Assembly (NCBI GenBank): GCA_035505375.1
Contig: DATJQV010000041.1
Coordinates: forward strand, 1 to 58,155
DNA: 58,155 bases
Direction of reading: 5' to 3'
Source of the DNA: a bacterium
Lineage (GTDB): Bacteria; Hydrothermota; Tepidihabitantia; Tepidihabitantales; Tepidihabitantaceae
Shown: piece after piece, positions 13,574-57,875 of the stretch
Layout of the letters: every line of letters starts with the position of its first letter
Numbering within the stretch: the stretch's first letter is position 1
Made by a program: the position numbers and the translations under genes
The notes under the pieces: model-generated
What the model was told of the DNA's origin: nothing
Database searches by the model: none
Seen by the model: the letters and a program-made list of their open reading frames with translations, nothing else

Positions 13574-13703
13574 CTGCTAATTCTACGCCTGAAACGGCCA
13601 CCGTCAAACCATGACAGCCGACCCAGACAATTCAGAAGTCAGAATTCAGAGACAAGAATCCAGAATTCCAGCCAGGAACCAAGTCCAATCCGCTCTCCCA
13701 CAT

Positions 13704-14230
13704 CTGTGTTCATCCGTGTTAATCCGTGGTTCTCGATTCCGCTCCGTGTCCGCAATTCTGCACTCTGGTCTCTGGACTCTGAATTCTGGATTATCCGGCC
13801 CCGACGCTTTGCGTCCTTGGCGGTTCTCACTTCTGCTTCGTGTCTTTGTGTCTTTGTGGTAAGATGACCGACTCGGTTCCTCGGTATCAGTGTTCATCCG
13901 TGTTAATCCGTGGTTCTCACTTCCGCTCCGATTCCGCAATTCTGCATTCTGGTCTCTGGATTCTGAATTCTGGATTATCCGGCCCCGACGCTTGGCGTCC
14001 TTGGCGGTTCTCACTTCTACTTCGTGTCTTTGTGTCTTTGTGGTAAGATGACCGACTCGGTTCCTCGGTATCTGTGTTCATCCGTGTTAATCCGTGGTTC
14101 TCACTTCCGCTCCGAGTCCGCAATTCTGCACTCTGGTCTCTGGACTCTGAATTCTGGACTATCCGGCCCCGACGCTTTGCCTCCTTGGCGGTCATCTTCT
14201 CTTCGTGTCTTTGTGTCTTTGTGTTAGAAT
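13704..14230. repeat. 184-bp tandem repeats
   Basis: The word tgttcatccgtgttaatccg occurs at 13707, 13891 and 14075, exactly 184 bases apart. Each unit then carries gcaattctgca, ctctgaattctgga, attatccggcccc and gtgtctttgtgtctttgtg. Units differ at scattered positions. Pieces recur elsewhere, for example between carA and carB at 51150-51240. The stretch 13574-14235 holds no gene. Confidence 0.8.
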
Positions 14231-23653: not shown

Positions 23654-24162
23654 AGCAAGCCTCCAACGCTATGCGCCAACATGAGTCAGAATGTTAATGT
23701 CGCGCTATCCATAGTCAAGCATGTGCGCGGCCGGACGAGGGCAGGAACTGCGTACTGGCAGCTACTTCGGTACGTCGATGTCGAAGACGGCTCGCGCCGC
23801 AGGCGCGAGTTGCTGGACACAACCAGACGATACCCTCCAGTTGGCGTCAGGGCGCGCTGGCGTCGGTTCGCATGTTGCAGGATTCTGCGCAGAGCTGGGT
23901 CGCCGCTGCCTTGTTGCTGAGAGCTCTGCCGTCACGCGGGTCGGTCAGCGTACCATGCTCGCGCGTGAGATTGCACTTTGCCTCCGAACGCGCGGCTCGT
24001 TTGGTCGTAGCAGCCAGCCTGCTCGCCCGGCCTTTCCATCCTGCGCGCCACAGCGTGAAGTTGCAGCGTTTCTGGCCCGCTGGCTTGAGCGTTCCACAGC
24101 CATAACAGATTGATTTTAAAGACTATAGCCCACTCGATGCGCTGCTCAACCTTCCACTCCTG
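23654..24162. other. Gap with no recognised gene
   Basis: Apart from the promoter at 23691-23718 I see no feature. Open frames here have no family resemblance, no ribosome site and atypical composition (Cys- and Arg-rich), so they are left out. Confidence 0.5.
23691..23718 (-). promoter_or_regulatory. Promoter before the Mod-like fragment and island operon
   Basis: On the minus strand, TTGACT (23713-23718), 16-bp spacer, TAACAT (23691-23696). The ATG of the Mod-like fragment follows about 37 bases after the -10 box, with a GGAGG site. If active, it would also transcribe the helicase and the genes behind it. Confidence 0.45.
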
Positions 24163-24486
24163 GAGTCACTCCCCGGGTCACTCCCCGAGTGACTCCCCCA
24201 GTGACTCCCCCAGTGACTCCCCCAGTGACTCACCGAGTCACTCGCGGACTGACTTACCGAGTGACTTGCCGACTGACTCGGCGAGTGATTCGGCAGGTGA
24301 CTTACCGACTGAGCTACCGAGTCACGTACCGACTGACACGCGGAGTGACCTCATGAGTCAGTTGGGGAGTTACCTGCCGAGTGACTTGGGGATTGACCCG
24401 CCGAGTGACTCGGTAGGTCACTCGCCGACTGACTTGCCGGATGACTCAGCAGGTCGCTTGCCTAGTGACTTGCAGAGTCATGTGCC
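24163..24486. repeat. Degenerate 12-bp tandem array 3 (27 units)
   Basis: Exactly 27 units of 12 bp without a gap, for example gagtgactcccc, gagtcactcgcg, gactgacttacc and gagtcagttggg. The first seven positions read strong-weak-strong-weak-strong-weak-strong in 17 units. Variation at positions 3 and 5 is nearly all G versus C (13 C, 1 A and 2 T among the non-G bases). The core GAGTGACTC is near-palindromic. A frame encoding Ser-Pro-Ser-Asp tetrapeptides is open through it, but so are others. Confidence 0.88.
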
Positions 24487-24501
24487 AGTGCGCAATCAGC
24501 G

Positions 24502-24808
24502 CATGGGGACAAGCCCACGTGACGGCCGGAAAGTGAGGGACACTCCCACGGAGCGGCTGCGTCGGACGTGCCCTGGGCACCGTTGGAACGAGCGGCGCGG
24601 TAGCGTCCCTATTTTCCAGTGCAAGGGGACACGTCCACGGAGCGACGCGAGGGACGCGTCGCGGGGATGTACAGGCGAAACTGGGGACAGTCCCTCAGAG
24701 GCCCAAATGGGGACAGTCCCACGGAGCGCTTGCGTCGGACGTGCCCGGGGCACCGTAGGAACGAGCAGCGCGGTACAGTCCCCATTTGGGCGGGACGGTC
24801 CCCATTTT
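24502..24808. repeat. Block of GGGGACAGTCCC-type palindromic elements
   Basis: At least four element ends of the type atggggacagtccc or acagtccccatttt are interleaved with the shared middle cggagcg...tgcgtcggacgtgcc. The block directly follows array 3 and ends at the stop codon of the YHS gene, so it forms that operon's 3' end. Confidence 0.75.
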
Positions 24809-25474
24809 CTACTTGGAGAGGTACTTCTGCGGGGCTTTGAGGAAGTTGTCTTTGCAGGCCTCGCTGCAGAAGTAGTAGGTCTTGCCCTGGTAGTCGTAGC
24901 TCGCGGCCGCGGTCTTCTTGTCCACGGTCATGCCGCAGACCGGGTCCTTGAGTATCGGTTCGCTCTTCGTCATTGCGATTATCCCATCATTTACACTTGC
25001 ATCGCTGAGCTTCGCGTCGGCCTTCACGAACGCACCTGACTGGTCGATGAATAGCGCCACGGGCATCGTGTCGACCATGGCCGCTGCTAGCGCCGTCTTC
25101 TTCTGGTCAACCAGCACCAGGCCGGTGAGATTGTGCGCCTTCGCAAATGCCTTGGTCGCCTTGGTGCCGGCCGCGAGCACGTACACCAGCATCGGCTGTT
25201 GGTCGCCCTGGGACGAGACTGCCGCCTGCACGACGTCCACGGCCTTGCCCGAGGCCTCATCGGTACCGGCGAGGACCATGAGCATCGGCATCTTGCCGAT
25301 GTGCTCGGACAGCCTGACCGTGTCGCCGTTCAGGCTCACGAGCTTCAGACCGGCAAGCCCGCCTTGGCTCGACATCGATAAACAGCTTGAGCCGTTCTGG
25401 CACATGGCACACTGCGCAAACGCTGCCCCGACTGCCATCGTCAGCGTGATTCCGATTGTAAGCAAGAGTTTCAT
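24809..25474 (-). CDS. Exported redoxin-like protein with C-terminal YHS domain
   Basis: 221 residues. The signal peptide MKLLLTIGITLTMAVGAAFA is followed by a Cys-containing stretch (QCAMCQNGSSCLSM), then a thioredoxin-like part (LKLVSLNGDTVRLSEHIGK, then MLMVLAGTDEASG) lacking a CXXC active site. It ends in a YHS domain: DPVCGMTVDKKTAAASYDYQ and YYFCSEACKDNFLKAP. YHS domains bind metals through Cys, so a periplasmic metal-handling role is likely. It is the last gene of the envelope operon, 10 bases after the OB-fold lipoprotein gene, with an AAAGGAA site. Confidence 0.8.
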   Translation of the reverse strand: MKLLLTIGITLTMAVGAAFAQCAMCQNGSSCLSMSSQGGLAGLKLVSLNGDTVRLSEHIGKMPMLMVLAGTDEASGKAVDVVQAAVSSQGDQQPMLVYVLAAGTKATKAFAKAHNLTGLVLVDQKKTALAAAMVDTMPVALFIDQSGAFVKADAKLSDASVNDGIIAMTKSEPILKDPVCGMTVDKKTAAASYDYQGKTYYFCSEACKDNFLKAPQKYLSK

Positions 25475-25874: not shown

Positions 25875-26728
25875 GATTCTCCTATCCATACTTCTGCATT
25901 CTGACTTCTAGCTTCTGACTTCTGACTTCGTTCTATCTTCTCCGATAGTGTCTTTGTGTCTTTGTGGTAAGACTCTTCGCTTACGATTCTTCCGTCCGAA
26001 ATCTCAATCTTCTTGTCTGCCTCTGCCGCCAGCTCCGGGTCGTGTGTTGCCATGATGATGCCCAGTCCTTCCCGCGCCAGTTCCTGGAAGATCGCCAGTA
26101 CCGCGCCGCGCGACTTCTTCTCCAGCCTACCGGTCGGCTCGTCCGCGAGCAGTATCCGCGGCCGGTTCACGAGGGCGCGCGCGATAGCGACCCGCTGCAT
26201 GTCCCCGCCGTCAAGCTGCTTCGGCAGCGCCCGGCGCGACTTGGTCAGGCCGACCCGCTCAATCAGCTCGCTTACCCGCGTTTCATCATGCTTGCGCGCG
26301 AAGATGAGCGGCAACCGAATGTTCTCCTCCACCGTCAGCGTCGGTATCAGGTAGAAGAGCTGGAATATGAACCCGATGTGGTCGCGCCGGAACCGGACCA
26401 GTTCCTGTTCCTTCAAACCCGTGACCTCGGTGCCGGCAATCTTCAGGCTTCCCTTTGACGGCCGGTCCAGGCAGCCGATCTGGTTCAGTAGCGTAGTTTT
26501 GCCCGACCCGCTCCGGCCGACAATCGAGATCATTTCGCCCGGCGCCAGGGTCAGGTTGAGTCCGGCCAGCGCGTGGATAGTCTCGCTGCCCCGATGGTAG
26601 CTACGCCATAGATCAGTCGCGACGAGAAGTGGCGCGCGGGCCACGCCCGGAAAATGGGGACTGTACCGCGCCGAGTCGGACGCAGGCGCTCCGTGGGACT
26701 GTCCCAGTTTTCCGGCGCTAGACGACAT
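25871..26728 (-). CDS. ABC transporter ATPase (LolD/MacB type) with altered signature motif
   Basis: 285 residues. Walker A GRSGSGKTT, Q-loop FIFQLFYLIPTLT, Walker B ILLADEP and H-loop MATHDP are normal. The signature reads LDGGDMQRVAIARAL instead of LSGGQ/E, and the D-loop reads GRLEKKS instead of GNLD. ATG 26728 is chosen because GGAGG precedes it and it overlaps the upstream gene. Residues about 5-28 are then encoded by a palindromic element (26648-26714). The last 30 residues also look repeat-derived (SYHKDTKTLSEKI). It pairs with the second ATPase and the FtsX-type permeases. Confidence 0.85.
   Translation of the reverse strand: MSSSAGKLGQSHGAPASDSARYSPHFPGVARAPLLVATDLWRSYHRGSETIHALAGLNLTLAPGEMISIVGRSGSGKTTLLNQIGCLDRPSKGSLKIAGTEVTGLKEQELVRFRRDHIGFIFQLFYLIPTLTVEENIRLPLIFARKHDETRVSELIERVGLTKSRRALPKQLDGGDMQRVAIARALVNRPRILLADEPTGRLEKKSRGAVLAIFQELAREGLGIIMATHDPELAAEADKKIEISDGRIVSEESYHKDTKTLSEKIERSQKSEARSQNAEVWIGES
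26648..26714. repeat. GGGGACAGTCCC-type element in the 5' end of an ATPase gene
   Basis: Ends aaaatggggactgtaccgcg and gggactgtcccagttttcc bracket the usual gccgagtcggacgcaggcgc middle. It encodes the N-terminal extension of the ATPase without breaking the frame. Confidence 0.75.
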
Positions 26729-27545
26729 TCCCGTCCTCCAATCGAATAACCCGCGTAAACCGGGACTCCAGACTCAGGTCATGTGTTGCCACAATTACCG
26801 TCAGCCCGGAGTCCCGGCTTAAGGCCTGAAGGAGGTTAAAGATGCCATCGCGGATAGCAGTATCCAGATTGCCGGTCGGCTCGTCGGCCAGCAGCAGTCG
26901 CGGACGGTTGATAAGCGCCCGGGCCACCGCGACGCGCTGCATTTCGCCGCCGGAGAGCTCAGAAGGTTTATGCGTCATGCGGTGGCCGAGACCGACGAGG
27001 TCGAGAAGTCGCTTTGCTCTCTCCCGAGGGATAGAGGGATCAAGGGATCGAGGGATCAAGTGTCCGGACTCTCCCACTCTATCCCTTTGTCCCTTTATCT
27101 CTTTATCCCTCATGTTCTCGCCATTTCCCTTGCCCCACATTGTGGGCAGCAGGACGTTTTCGGTCGCGGTCAGGGCCGGCATCAGATAGAACTCCTGGAA
27201 CACGAACCCGATGTTCTTGCGCCGGAGCGCGTCGAGGCGAACTCCACGTCGGGCGACGTCGGTGCCCAGCACTTGGAGGCTGCCTTCGGTTGGCCGGTCC
27301 ATCAGGCCGATGAGATTGAGCAGCGTGGTCTTGCCCGCGCCCGAGTGCCCGACGACCCCAACGAACTCTCCGCACTTGACGTCGAGGCCGATGCCCTTCA
27401 AGGCGTGGATAGTCTCTGCGCCACGCCGATAGACTCGCGTAAGGCCGCGGGCTTGTACCGCAGGATTCGAGGATTCCAGGATTCCAGGATTCAAGCCGGA
27501 CACTAGACTCCTTGATTCCTCGACTCCTTGACCCCTGTTCTTCAT
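26718..27545 (-). CDS. ABC transporter ATPase (LolD/MacB type) with repeat-derived inserts
   Basis: 275 residues from ATG 27545, which overlaps the permease stop (TGATG). Canonical motifs: [49 protein letters not shown] and VATHD. Two stretches are foreign to the family: residues about 4-29 (27460-27537, ggattccag-type repeats) and about 145-173 (27026-27113, built of gggatagag/ctatccc words), the latter between the Q-loop and the signature helix. Both keep the frame. Together with the altered ATPase next to it, one composite ATP site may be degenerate. Confidence 0.88.
27026..27113. repeat. Palindromic agggat/atccct element inside an ATPase gene
   Basis: The left half repeats gagggat/aagggat and the right half repeats atccctt. 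A close relative is inserted in the NuoG-like gene at 43106-43198. Confidence 0.7.
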
Positions 27546-28705: not shown

Positions 28706-28715
28706 GGGGAAAGTG

Positions 28716-28805
28716 CTCCAGTGATCTAGTGATCTAGTGATCCAGTGAGGAAGCAGACGGACGCGCCGCGCCCCTGCACTCGACCACTAGACCACTTGAC
28801 CACTA
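28716..28805. repeat. Palindromic gatctagtg/ccactagacc element
   Basis: Lies between the two permease genes: tandem gtgatctagtgatctagtga on one side and cgaccactagaccacttgac on the other, giving partial inverted symmetry. A similar ccacttgaccac word occurs near 48943. Confidence 0.5.
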
Positions 28806-40945: not shown

Positions 40946-43588
40946 ATGGTACAAGAGCCACGCACGCTGACAATGGAGATCAACCACAAGCCGGTGACTT
41001 TCCCTGAGGGCGTGACCGTACACCGCGCCGCCGAGCTAGCCGGCGTCTACATCCCCTCGCTATGCTCGCACAAGGACCTTTCTCCATTCGGCGGATGCCG
41101 GATGTGCATGGTGGAGATCGAAGGGATGCGCGGCTACCCGCTCTCCTGCAACACCAAGGCCCAGGAAGGCATGAAAGTCCAGACCGACACGGTAACACTC
41201 CGGGAACTGCGGGTTGAGATTCTGAAGCTCATCTTGAGCGAGCACCCGTCGAGCTGTCTCGTCTGCGGCGAGAGTAAGGATTGCCGCGACTACCAGGGAA
41301 CTATTCGCAAGACCGGCGTGACCACCGGCTGCCGTTTCTGTCCGAACGACCGCCAGTGCGAACTGCAGGACATCGTGGAGAAGGTCGGCCTGACCGAGAT
41401 CGATTACCCGATCTACTACCACGGGTACGAACCCGAGCACGACGATCCATTCTACGACCGGGATTACAATATCTGCATTCTGTGTGGCCGGTGCGTGCGG
41501 ATGTGCCAGGAAGTCCGGGGAACCGGCGTGCTGGCCTTCACCTATCGCGGGCCGCGCGCCAAGATCGGCCCGGCCTTCGGCCGCAACCACGTCGAAGCGG
41601 GATGCGAATTCTGCGGAGCCTGCGTGGATGTCTGTCCGACCGGAGCGCTGGCCGACAAGGCCTCCAAGTGGGACGGCAAGCCGGACGGCACCAAGGTATC
41701 GACGTGCCCGTTCTGCGCCGTCGGCTGCCAGCTCGAACTGGACTACAAGGACGGCCGGCTATCCAAGGCCAGCGCGAACCTCGACCCCGAGGTCAATGAC
41801 GGGCAACTGTGCGTCAAGGGCAGGTTCTGCATGCCGGAAGTGACCCACCACTTCGAACGGGCGAAGTGGACGATGCTGCAGAAGGGTGACTATTTCCGGA
41901 AGGTCGGTTGGGAGGAAGCCATCCAGAAAGTGGCTGCCGAGTTGAAGGGGATTCGTCCCGACGAATTCCTGATGCTCGCCTCGCCCGACCTCACCAACGA
42001 GAGCCTGTTCGCGGCCCGGAAGTTCGTCCGAGAGTGCCTCGGCTCGAACGGCATCGACTCAACCGCGCGGATGGAGCTGGCCGGAGGCACGGACCTCTGG
42101 TCCAAGCTCTTCTCGCTGCCGATATCGATCAAGAGCATCGCCCAGGCCGATGTGATTCTGGCGGTCGGGCTCGACTCCCGGTTCAACTTCTCGGTGGTGG
42201 GCACGAAGGTACGCAAGGCCCTCGACCGGGGAGCCAAGCTGGTGACGATGGACGCCCGCGACAGCAACCTTGCCCGCTATACCGACGACTGGCTCCGTCC
42301 TCAGCCGGGCGCGGAAGCGTTGCTGCTCAAGTTCCTTGCCGAAAGCCTCGCGGACCGCGTGGGACATGACCGAAACTCTTCTGGAGTTTCGGATCGTGTC
42401 CCAAGCCCGGTAGCAGCCGTGGCAAAGCAGGCAGGCGTAGAAGCCGAGGCTTTGACGCGGGCCCTCCAGATTCTCTCCGCGACCAAAGACCTGACTGTGA
42501 TTATCGGGCCGCAGGTATTCCACTACTCGAACAACGACGAACTCGCGCAGAGCCTCGCAACACTGTCTGGACGAGATGGAACCAACTTCATCCCGCTCTA
42601 TTTCGGCGCCAATACCCGCGGCGTGCTGGAGATGGGAGTCCTCCCCGAACCCCGGAACCCCGGAACCCCAGAACCCTTCCCTCATTCACTCAGCCTTGCC
42701 GATGTCCTGACCGGCTCCAAGCGGCCCAAGATCCTCTACCTCGTCGGCGAGCTCCCGTTCCTCGAGCGGCCGGACTGCGATTTTCTGATTGTCCAGGATA
42801 CGTATCTCCCTCCCTTCAAGGTCGACGCCTTCCTTCCTGCGGCCAGTTTCGCCGAGGCCGGCGGAACTCTCATCAACATGGAAGGCCGGGTTCAGAAGGT
42901 TGTTCCAGTCGAGAGCCCGACAGAAGGGGCCGTTGCCGGGTTCATGCGCCCTGACTGGCGGATCTTCTCGGACCTCGCTCACGCCCTCGGATTCGGCGGG
43001 ATGAACTACCAGACCTATCAGGATGTCGACAAGGACATCCACGCGGCGGTACCTGATTTCCCGGCCCGGCCTGACCGGTTGCCGCAGAGGATGAAGCCCA
43101 CCGAGAGGGACAAAGGGATACAGGGGCAAAGGGATACAGTGTCGGAATGTCCGAGTCCTGCACTTGATCCCTCGATCCCTCGACCCCTTGATCCCTTCCG
43201 CTGCCTGCTCGTCGCCGAACCGGGCGGATATCGTCATCGGGGCATCGACATCTCCTCGAAGGTGGGCGGACTCGGCGAGCTGGCTTTGGAAGAGGGATTC
43301 CGGATGAGCCCGGAAGATTACGCTTCCCTCGGTCTGGCCGACGGCGACCAGGTCACGGTGACGGTCTTGGGTGGCTTGGGACACGATCCCAATTCCCAGG
43401 AGGAATTGGGTCATGTCCCTCATAAGATCACGGTCTCGGGTCCGGCCAAGTCGAACCGAGAATGCCCGAAGGGCGTCGTCTATTACACACGGCCGGTCGT
43501 ATTCGGCGGGCTGTCCCATCGCAGTGCGCTCCTGCCGCTATACGGACTCAAGCAGAACCCGGCGGAAGCGTCCGTCAGGAAAGCATAA
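40946..43588 (+). CDS. NuoG-like Fe-S subunit with four repeat-derived inserts
   Basis: 880 residues. N-terminal [2Fe-2S] ferredoxin (C40, C51, C54, C68), an extended Cys segment (HPSSCLVCGES, GCRFCPNDRQC), two [4Fe-4S] clusters (CILCGRCVRMC, CEFCGACVDVCP) and the molybdopterin-type start STCPFCAVGCQLEL. The catalytic Cys/Sec region of formate dehydrogenases is not seen (ARMELAGGTDLW instead), so it is probably NuoG-like and non-catalytic. It has no H-cluster motifs and is not HydA. Four repeat-derived stretches interrupt it: 42361-42402, 42646-42676, 43106-43198 and 43378-43419. The reading frame is intact. Confidence 0.85.
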   Translation: MVQEPRTLTMEINHKPVTFPEGVTVHRAAELAGVYIPSLCSHKDLSPFGGCRMCMVEIEGMRGYPLSCNTKAQEGMKVQTDTVTLRELRVEILKLILSEHPSSCLVCGESKDCRDYQGTIRKTGVTTGCRFCPNDRQCELQDIVEKVGLTEIDYPIYYHGYEPEHDDPFYDRDYNICILCGRCVRMCQEVRGTGVLAFTYRGPRAKIGPAFGRNHVEAGCEFCGACVDVCPTGALADKASKWDGKPDGTKVSTCPFCAVGCQLELDYKDGRLSKASANLDPEVNDGQLCVKGRFCMPEVTHHFERAKWTMLQKGDYFRKVGWEEAIQKVAAELKGIRPDEFLMLASPDLTNESLFAARKFVRECLGSNGIDSTARMELAGGTDLWSKLFSLPISIKSIAQADVILAVGLDSRFNFSVVGTKVRKALDRGAKLVTMDARDSNLARYTDDWLRPQPGAEALLLKFLAESLADRVGHDRNSSGVSDRVPSPVAAVAKQAGVEAEALTRALQILSATKDLTVIIGPQVFHYSNNDELAQSLATLSGRDGTNFIPLYFGANTRGVLEMGVLPEPRNPGTPEPFPHSLSLADVLTGSKRPKILYLVGELPFLERPDCDFLIVQDTYLPPFKVDAFLPAASFAEAGGTLINMEGRVQKVVPVESPTEGAVAGFMRPDWRIFSDLAHALGFGGMNYQTYQDVDKDIHAAVPDFPARPDRLPQRMKPTERDKGIQGQRDTVSECPSPALDPSIPRPLDPFRCLLVAEPGGYRHRGIDISSKVGGLGELALEEGFRMSPEDYASLGLADGDQVTVTVLGGLGHDPNSQEELGHVPHKITVSGPAKSNRECPKGVVYYTRPVVFGGLSHRSALLPLYGLKQNPAEASVRKA
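42361..42402. repeat. 42-bp palindrome inside the NuoG-like gene
   Basis: Ends gggacatgacc and ggatcgtgtccc; inner stem gaaactc/gagtttc; four-base loop region. Exactly 14 codons. Its reverse complement shares both ends with the element at 43378-43419 but has another inner stem. Confidence 0.8.
43106..43198. repeat. Palindromic agggat/atccct element inside the NuoG-like gene
   Basis: Words gggacaaagggataca on the left and gatccctcgatccctcg on the right. Same family as 27026-27113. It encodes a run of charged and Pro-rich residues (RDKGIQGQRDTVSECPSP). Confidence 0.7.
43378..43419. repeat. Second 42-bp palindrome inside the NuoG-like gene
   Basis: Ends gggacacgatccc and gggtcatgtccc; inner stem aattcc/ggaatt. 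Same length and same terminal arms as 42361-42402, opposite orientation. The ends, but not the inner stems, are conserved. Confidence 0.8.
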
Positions 43589-49896: not shown

Positions 49897-50035
49897 TCGT
49901 CATGGACATCCGCGTTCATCAGGGCTGTTTCACTCCTCAGTCCGCAATTCTGCTTTCTGCTTTCTGGTTTCTGAATTCTGGTTTCTTTGGCTTCTCGGAT
50001 GCCGGGCTTGCGCCGCACCGCCCCCCCACTAAGAT

Positions 50036-51149: not shown

Positions 51150-51240
51150 CCCGAGTTTAGAGTGCAGAGCCCAGAGTCCAGAATGCCCGGGAATTCTGAA
51201 TTCTCGTTTCTGGATTCTGAATTCTGAATTATCCGGCCCC
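51150..51240. repeat. Repeat element between carA and carB
   Basis: Contains agagcccagagtccagaatg, ggaattctgaattctcgttt and ctgaattatccggcccc, the same words as the 184-bp repeats at 13704-14230. It fills almost the whole gap between carA and carB, so it was probably inserted into the operon. Confidence 0.65.
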
Positions 51241-56763: not shown

Positions 56764-56956
56764 GGCAGGAACTAGGCCGCCGCCCGTGTGGCGGCAATTG
56801 CCTGGACCCCGGCGCTCCGGCTCCGAATCAGGCGACGACGAATAGGCCAAGACGGGCAGACCGAATCCGGAACCGTACCAAACCTGCCAAGCGACGACCT
56901 TCAATGTCGCCGCGGCCGACCATTCGGGTGTTTCACGCGCCCGCAAACGCGCCTCT

Positions 56957-57208
56957 GAAAGCTCACTTGAAAGCTCGCCGGAAAGCTCGTTTCAGAGTTC
57001 GCTGGAAAGTACCTCAGAATGCTTGCTCAAGAGCTCACTTCATAGCATCTTCCATTGCTCAACTCAAAGCTCGTCACATCGCTTCGCGCATCGCTCGCCT
57101 CAAAGCTCAGCGCATTGCTTCTCACATCGCTTGCTGCAAAGCTCAGTCGAAAGCTCGCGTCAAAGCTCTTCCGAAAGCTCGACTCAAAGCTCGGGTCATT
57201 GCAGGCTC
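56957..57208. repeat. Degenerate 12-bp tandem array 4 (21 units)
   Basis: Exactly 21 units of 12 bp, such as gaaagctcgccg, caaagctcgtca, cattgctcaact and catcgcttcgcg. Position 1 is G or C in 20 units and position 3 is A or T in 19. A/T and G/C exchanges dominate. All three plus-strand frames are open through it. The region 56764-56956 before it holds nothing recognisable. Confidence 0.85.
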
Positions 57209-57470
57209 CAATTCATCTCGCACTGCATCGGCAAGGGCTGCGGGGTAGGCGGCCTCCCGGCCATGGGGTGGACGGCAGAATTGTGGCCGAGAGCGGCCCG
57301 ACCACTACATATGGACAGGGCTAGGTTGCAGTGGAAGCCTGCGCTCGCCCTACTCGGCCGACCGGCGAATTATACAACTTTGTATACTGAACAGCCGGGC
57401 CGAGAAACAGCTCAAGTGACCAGATCGTAGACAGTTAACCAGCAAGCGACCGAACGTACCCCTGCGCGGG

Positions 57471-57794
57471 GCAGAGACTCTGCCCAACTCTTTGGCAGGC
57501 TCTCTGGCAAGCTCTCTACCAGACTCTCTCCCGAGCTCCTTGCCAGACTCTCCGGCAAGGACTCTCCCAAGCTCATTGCCCTGTTCTCTGCCCAAGTCTC
57601 TGCCCTGCTCTCCGGCAGAGTCCCTCCCAAGCTCATTGGCAGGTTCTCTCCCTCGCTCTTCGCCGGATTCTCTGGCAGACTCCCTCCCAAGCTCATCGGC
57701 AGATTCTCTGCCGGACTCATCGGCAGGTTCTCTGGCAGAGTCTCTCCCAAGCTCACGGGCAGACTCTCTGCCCAAGCCTCTGCCCGACTCTTTC
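57471..57794. repeat. Degenerate 12-bp tandem array 5 (27 units)
   Basis: Twenty-seven 12-bp units, for example gcaggctctctg, ccaagctcattg, ccagactctctc and gcagagtctctc. Position 1 is G or C and position 2 is C in every unit. Frames on both strands are open; the minus-strand one reads Gly-Arg-Glu-Ser-type tetrapeptides. The array ends about 80 bases before the transposase stop. Confidence 0.85.
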
Positions 57795-57875
57795 ATCCAT
57801 TCCCTGCCATACTTCGGGGTCCACTTGTCTTCTTTTCGATTCGCGGTATCCGGTCCGCGTCTTTGCTTCCGCACT

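Follow-up and report, generated by a model that had tools for sequence, protein, structure and literature searches.

Plasmid centromere and operator arrays, such as parC/ParR and the omega heptad repeats, typically consist of short repeats placed end to end in the non-coding DNA that precedes the gene of a small protein. Short tandem units with one homogeneous end, gained and lost as whole units, are likewise found in bacterial minisatellites (VNTRs). In the Adnaviria, archaeal rod-shaped and filamentous viruses, the major coat proteins wrap DNA at a fixed spacing: in SIRV2 and AFV1 one coat dimer occupies 12 bp of A-DNA, with the SIRV2 homodimer axis passing through the DNA dyad (PMC5517147), and in PFV2 a coat dimer again covers 12 bp of A-DNA (PMC7189273). 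This realm has been described as unconnected to any virus of bacteria or eukaryotes (PMC10848233). The array considered here lies in a 58,155-nucleotide stretch of DNA (the window) from a genome of WOR-3 (phylum Caldifarciminota, Bacteria), and its period equals the adnaviral dimer footprint. We propose, with a probability of roughly 0.65, that it is a tiling array, serving for nucleation or as an operator, for a DNA-wrapping protein that descends from the Adnaviria major coats or has a common ancestry with them. The two features at the center of this proposal are:

24163 to 24486, minus strand: 12-bp array of 27 units, consensus GAGTSACTYGCC on the plus strand, GGCRAGTSACTC when read in the direction of the linked gene
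23887 to 24129, minus strand: decayed coat-like gene copy, covering the leader and 5' part, identified with nhmmer and lying directly downstream of the array as the gene reads

The array is 324 bp long, exactly the 27 gapless 12-bp units counted in a first-pass annotation of this DNA, and its base match of 0.667 at lag 12 and 0.680 at lag 24, compared with 0.11–0.38 at lags other than multiples of 12, bears out that count and marks the period as sharp. Units 1–6 (24163–24234) are near-identical, and the remaining units have diverged. The strong/weak pattern SWSWSWS occupies positions 1–7 in exactly 17 of the 27 units, and at positions 3 and 5 the non-G bases are C in 13 of 16 cases (8/9 at position 5, 5/7 at position 3), an excess for which P ranges from 0.003 (background C frequency 0.45) to 1e-4 (0.33); both tallies agree with those of the annotation. 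The array is symmetric about the center base of AGTSACT, with the dyad axis on base pairs and a symmetry score of 0.86. The annotation also doubted that the repeat encodes a tetrapeptide, and with reason: none of the reading frames stays open across all arrays, so the coding explanation fails and a tetrapeptide-coding repeat is ruled out. The ORF at 24110–25039 (+) that reads through the window array is antisense to gene 24809–25474. The decayed coat-like copy at 24129–23887 was recovered by a profile built from ten further copies at E = 3.1e-14, against a next best match in the window of 1.2 and a best reversed-sequence control of 1.4. Beside the array, positions 24500–24830 hold several copies of the palindrome GGGGACAGTCCCC, which resemble REP-type elements.

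Searching the window array's own genome (3.6 Mb, 90 contigs) at the nucleotide level gave 26 matches to it at approximately 15 separate places. Refinement of 12-bp periodicity over 849 kb of this genome, a sample partly picked for holding arrays, yielded 49 arrays; on three large contigs the density is approximately 54 arrays per Mb. The unit sequences form several unrelated families, and the arrays are intergenic, long ORFs covering 5.7% of array bases versus 72% of all bases. The unit number lies between 20 and 32 in 45 of the 49 arrays, and 42 of these 45 keep a slip-free register. In a period scan of this genome the values 7 and 12 dominate, together with their multiples and a number of arrays at 6; one array was found at period 13 and none at 10, 11, 16, 17, 19 or 20. 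Within the window, further 12-periodic stretches are:

225 to 560, no strand assigned: weak 12-periodic stretch of 28 units, consensus CGCAGTCAGTGC, of the same class as the window array
842 to 1129, no strand assigned: weak 12-periodic stretch of 24 units, consensus TCCCGGTACAAC, of the same class as the window array
56938 to 57237, no strand assigned: orphan 12-bp array of 25 units, AAAGCTCGTCTC family, with no coat-like gene within 1.2 kb
57477 to 57812, no strand assigned: orphan 12-bp array of 28 units, CTCTGCCAGACT family, 240 bp past the preceding array

The array at 57477–57812 has a copy with 94% identity at another place in the genome. At window positions 56938–57812 and on other contigs (C81:62051–63014, C81:117192–118194 and C75:37707–38670), AAAGCTC-type arrays are followed after approximately 240–310 bp by another 12-bp array, built from a different unit, and several of these spacers contain a conserved block of approximately 150 bp (CAGGCGACCCCTATATGCGG ... 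CCGACCGAG ... CTCGGT ... CAGTTCTTTT), a possible stem-loop. Other period classes are also present in the window. Degenerate 7-bp arrays (NNTTCTG) occur at 25890–25929, 49946–49986, 51191–51230 and 13702–14223, the last a 184-bp tandem repeat that includes some of them; in this genus their frequency is about that of 12-bp arrays, and they are rare in G007, a genome of another genus. Short 8-bp tandem arrays occur at 27025–27060, 27461–27492, 28712–28748, 42643–42676 and 43106–43139.

The search of related genomes for 12-bp-periodic arrays that the annotation suggested found them in sister and related genera, including G007, with 36 arrays per Mb. Matches to the array pattern fall in WOR-3 MAGs; the two-unit pattern has one match outside WOR-3, in uncultured Verrucomicrobia AG-365-D08 (L040), which may be chance.

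Several of these features would be expected of a neutral or selfish minisatellite, in which the 12-bp units multiply through slippage and unequal exchange, travel with a duplicating coat-like gene and match the coat footprint by coincidence. Close paralogous arrays differ in length by 12, 24 or 48 bp, that is, by whole units; several arrays have one homogeneous end, as expected after recent expansion; 7-bp arrays are also abundant in the same genome; and the majority of arrays are orphans, with no coat-like gene within 1.2 kb of 37 of the 49 sampled. We nevertheless consider this origin unlikely: across arrays of unrelated sequence the unit number is held to the narrow range of approximately 20–32, the register is almost never lost despite 25–45% divergence, and a dyad on a base pair is common to unrelated consensus units. 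Moreover, 12-bp arrays are abundant in genomes with many coat-like genes, and none occurred in 200 kb from a related genome with few copies or in 199 kb from another order. The narrow spread of unit number, the near-absence of slips, the dyad symmetry and the gene linkage described below would all distinguish these arrays from VNTRs, and their whole-unit differences also find a parallel in the 12-bp indels common in rudivirus and lipothrixvirus genomes. The orphans were considered as arrays of dead gene copies, a possibility ruled out by the lack of gene remnants within 1.2 kb.

Turning to the linked gene, alignment of the flanks of GAGTGACTC arrays uncovered a conserved ORF beginning approximately 140–230 bp from the array. 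The corresponding coat-like family, of approximately 123 amino acids, has 29 copies in this genome, 13–42 in five sister genomes and 1–20 in the rest of the order; profile searching across 147 genomes of the phylum recovered it in 28/28 genomes of the order and 1/119 others. The gene is under purifying selection, with dN/dS of 0.03–0.3 for close pairs. In this genome, 17 of the 29 copies have an array ending 15–340 bp upstream, a linkage that, given the array density on the large contigs, is far beyond chance (of order 1e-16 by our estimate), and four further copies have an array 548–998 bp upstream. Among sister and related genera (G001–G005, G008 and G015), an array lies within 340 bp upstream in 11 of the 15 copies examined, and some copies in G007 also have upstream arrays. 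No upstream array was present at the copies examined in more distant genera and genomes, or at several copies in this genome, namely the C52, C3_47, C42_64 and C15_10 subfamily. Promoter hexamers between array and gene were overall not above shuffles, and we therefore claim no promoter there. The similarity of units tracks the identity of the proteins (Mantel r 0.64, p < 0.0005, n = 20), a co-inheritance that is also expected from plain duplication.

Comparisons by profile, Pfam, hhalign and AlphaFold/Foldseek concur that this protein of approximately 123 amino acids is, as judged from its sequence and predicted fold, a homolog of the Adnaviria major coat proteins. When a 40-member profile of the family was searched against the PDB, the six best sequences were all coats of SIRV2 (E 3e-4), SSRV1, AFV1 and SFV1. 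Sulf_coat_C (PF12193) is matched by 24 of the 40 members (best 4e-7), and in the reverse search PF12193 found 13 genes, spread over 10 of the 41 genomes, above the curated cut-off of 25.2 bits, including G000:C30 at 29.7, the other coat-like members scoring under 25.2 bits; none exceeded the cut-off in 14 control genomes or in other orders. Alignment of the family with seven rudivirus coats by hhalign gave 95.2% and E 2.8e-8. The AlphaFold model (pLDDT 93.5) has the long helical arm and C-terminal helix bundle of the coat fold, and adnavirus coats occupy ranks 1–9 of its Foldseek search of the PDB (TM 0.72/0.70 to SIRV2); the best E is a modest 0.004, and all non-coat matches have a probability below 0.5, with no competing fold. 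The best match in BFVD is a SIRV coat. The coat-like protein thus resembles the Adnaviria coats (SIRV2, SSRV1, AFV1 and PFV2; PF12193) in profile, all-helical fold, basic N-terminal arm and a length of approximately 120–135 amino acids.

The setting of the gene differs from that in Adnaviria. The host is bacterial, and the coat-like genes stand alone among cellular genes, in up to approximately 40 copies and with no surrounding virus genome: the flanks in related genomes contain cellular-looking ordinary ORFs, as judged from their translations, and do not place the gene within a viral genome alongside further viral genes. Viral-contig and phage collections yielded no relatives of the bacterial family. 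Given these neighbors and the lack of viral relatives, domestication or common ancestry is a better fit than an active virus. Many copies here have a repeat array beside them, whereas 12-bp arrays are absent from the two rudivirus segments that we tested, each of 16 kb and spanning the coat gene. Our searches of the openly accessible literature yielded no description of a bacterial family of this kind.

Possibly, the arrays are bound by another protein, for example a ribbon-helix-helix partition protein or repressor, with the coat-like gene a mere neighbor. Orphan arrays exist without a coat-like gene, and contiguous short repeats are known for plasmid partition systems and omega-type repressors. 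However, one gene family is linked to the arrays in several genera, unit and protein sequences correlate, and the footprint of the coat family itself matches exactly 12 bp, which together make this alternative quite improbable. The linked protein has a viral coat-type helical bundle, not a ribbon-helix-helix fold, and, unlike the plasmid systems, these arrays are chromosomal, occur at many loci with differing unit sequences and comprise approximately 25 units of 12 bp.

The symmetry of the arrays is consistent with a coat-type dimer as the ligand. Two-fold symmetry has a mean z of 1.5 over 33 arrays, and in the strongly symmetric arrays the axis falls on a base pair in 20 of 20, covering approximately eight unrelated units by our count; some gene-linked arrays are asymmetric (e.g., C81_101 and G015_C217). 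The mixing of C and G is more even at axis columns, 0.27 compared with 0.16 at other strong columns, a comparison that is partly circular through the choice of axis. For a symmetric dimer, C and G are equivalent at the dyad base pair, which would explain why strong/weak class is kept and base identity is not.

Substitution spectra, another analysis suggested by the annotation, confirm that the swaps are real within arrays: G↔C exchanges make up 44% of deviations within the window array and 28% over 47 arrays of the genome. Between paralogous arrays, G↔C accounts for 11–19%, and transitions, in families with enough changes, for 51–60%. These ordinary spectra speak against a biased G↔C mutation, and no exotic mutation process is needed; the "unusual diversification process" that the annotation had entertained is thus not borne out. 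The G/C swaps are a standing heterogeneity among units that is passed on by whole-array copying, and there is no ongoing biased substitution. The annotation's other suggestion, a DNA-level constraint through multivalent protein binding, is the best fit to the 12-bp tiling, the dyad on a base pair, the intergenic site and the linkage to a homolog of coats with 12 bp per dimer, a body of support that is indirect.

Paired arms of a structured RNA transcribed from the arrays might also generate G/C swaps. GAGT-family arrays have a folding energy below that of column-shuffled sequences on the window plus strand (z between about −1 and −3 for the members analyzed) and a weaker signal on the other strand, a strand bias for which the coat-binding model gives no explanation. 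Against this, AAAGCTC and other array families show no folding signal relative to column shuffles, consensus folds of paralogs (only two to three sequences per alignment) contain no convincing compensatory changes, few double changes and many broken pairs, and no array matched Rfam above threshold. We regard an RNA explanation as highly improbable.

Binding of the coat-like protein to the arrays is what we infer from the features established here, namely the gene family, its homology and fold, the linkage, the gapless phasing, the dyad symmetry and the co-inheritance. In the proposed coat-binding mechanism, the protein is encoded beside many arrays, the neighboring gene in the window having decayed, and a homodimer would sit on each 12-bp unit with its two-fold axis at the center base pair. 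Dimers would polymerize side by side over approximately 25 units to give a short nucleoprotein filament, the DNA of which is probably A-form, as in the viral relatives. A symmetric dimer would read the dyad base pair alike from both sides, so that G and C would be interchangeable there, giving rise to the strong/weak pattern. The filament would most likely either shut down the adjacent coat-like gene or mark and compact the locus; the role may accordingly lie in gene regulation or chromosome organization, or the arrays may be a packaging relic. A point against the proposal is that adnavirus coats wrap entire genomes and are not known to be sequence-specific.

More broadly, we consider it evenly balanced whether an order of WOR-3 bacteria possesses an adnavirus-type coat, domesticated or anciently shared, that polymerizes on dedicated 12-bp-tiled chromosomal arrays and wraps these within the bacterial cell, possibly in A-form, with many protein/array pairs diverged in unit sequence. 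The data suggest that bacteria have retained the coat wrapping machinery for a use so far undescribed. If this is true, a vertically widespread bacterial coat family with viral-footprint arrays would link the Adnaviria realm to bacteria and would point to a cellular role or a cellular origin of the coat fold. It would also provide a system for A-form DNA wrapping on defined short sequences, and the odd repeat pattern would become a testable protein–DNA code.

Two variations on the gene arrangement were observed. In G018, from a different family, the genome's single coat-like gene has a 12-bp array of approximately 10 units just downstream, not upstream (L194, about 1329–1449). In the copies C66_26, C81_176, C78 and C66_69 (L010, L012, L017 and L018), approximately 61 N-terminal codons are kept, with the remainder deleted or replaced.
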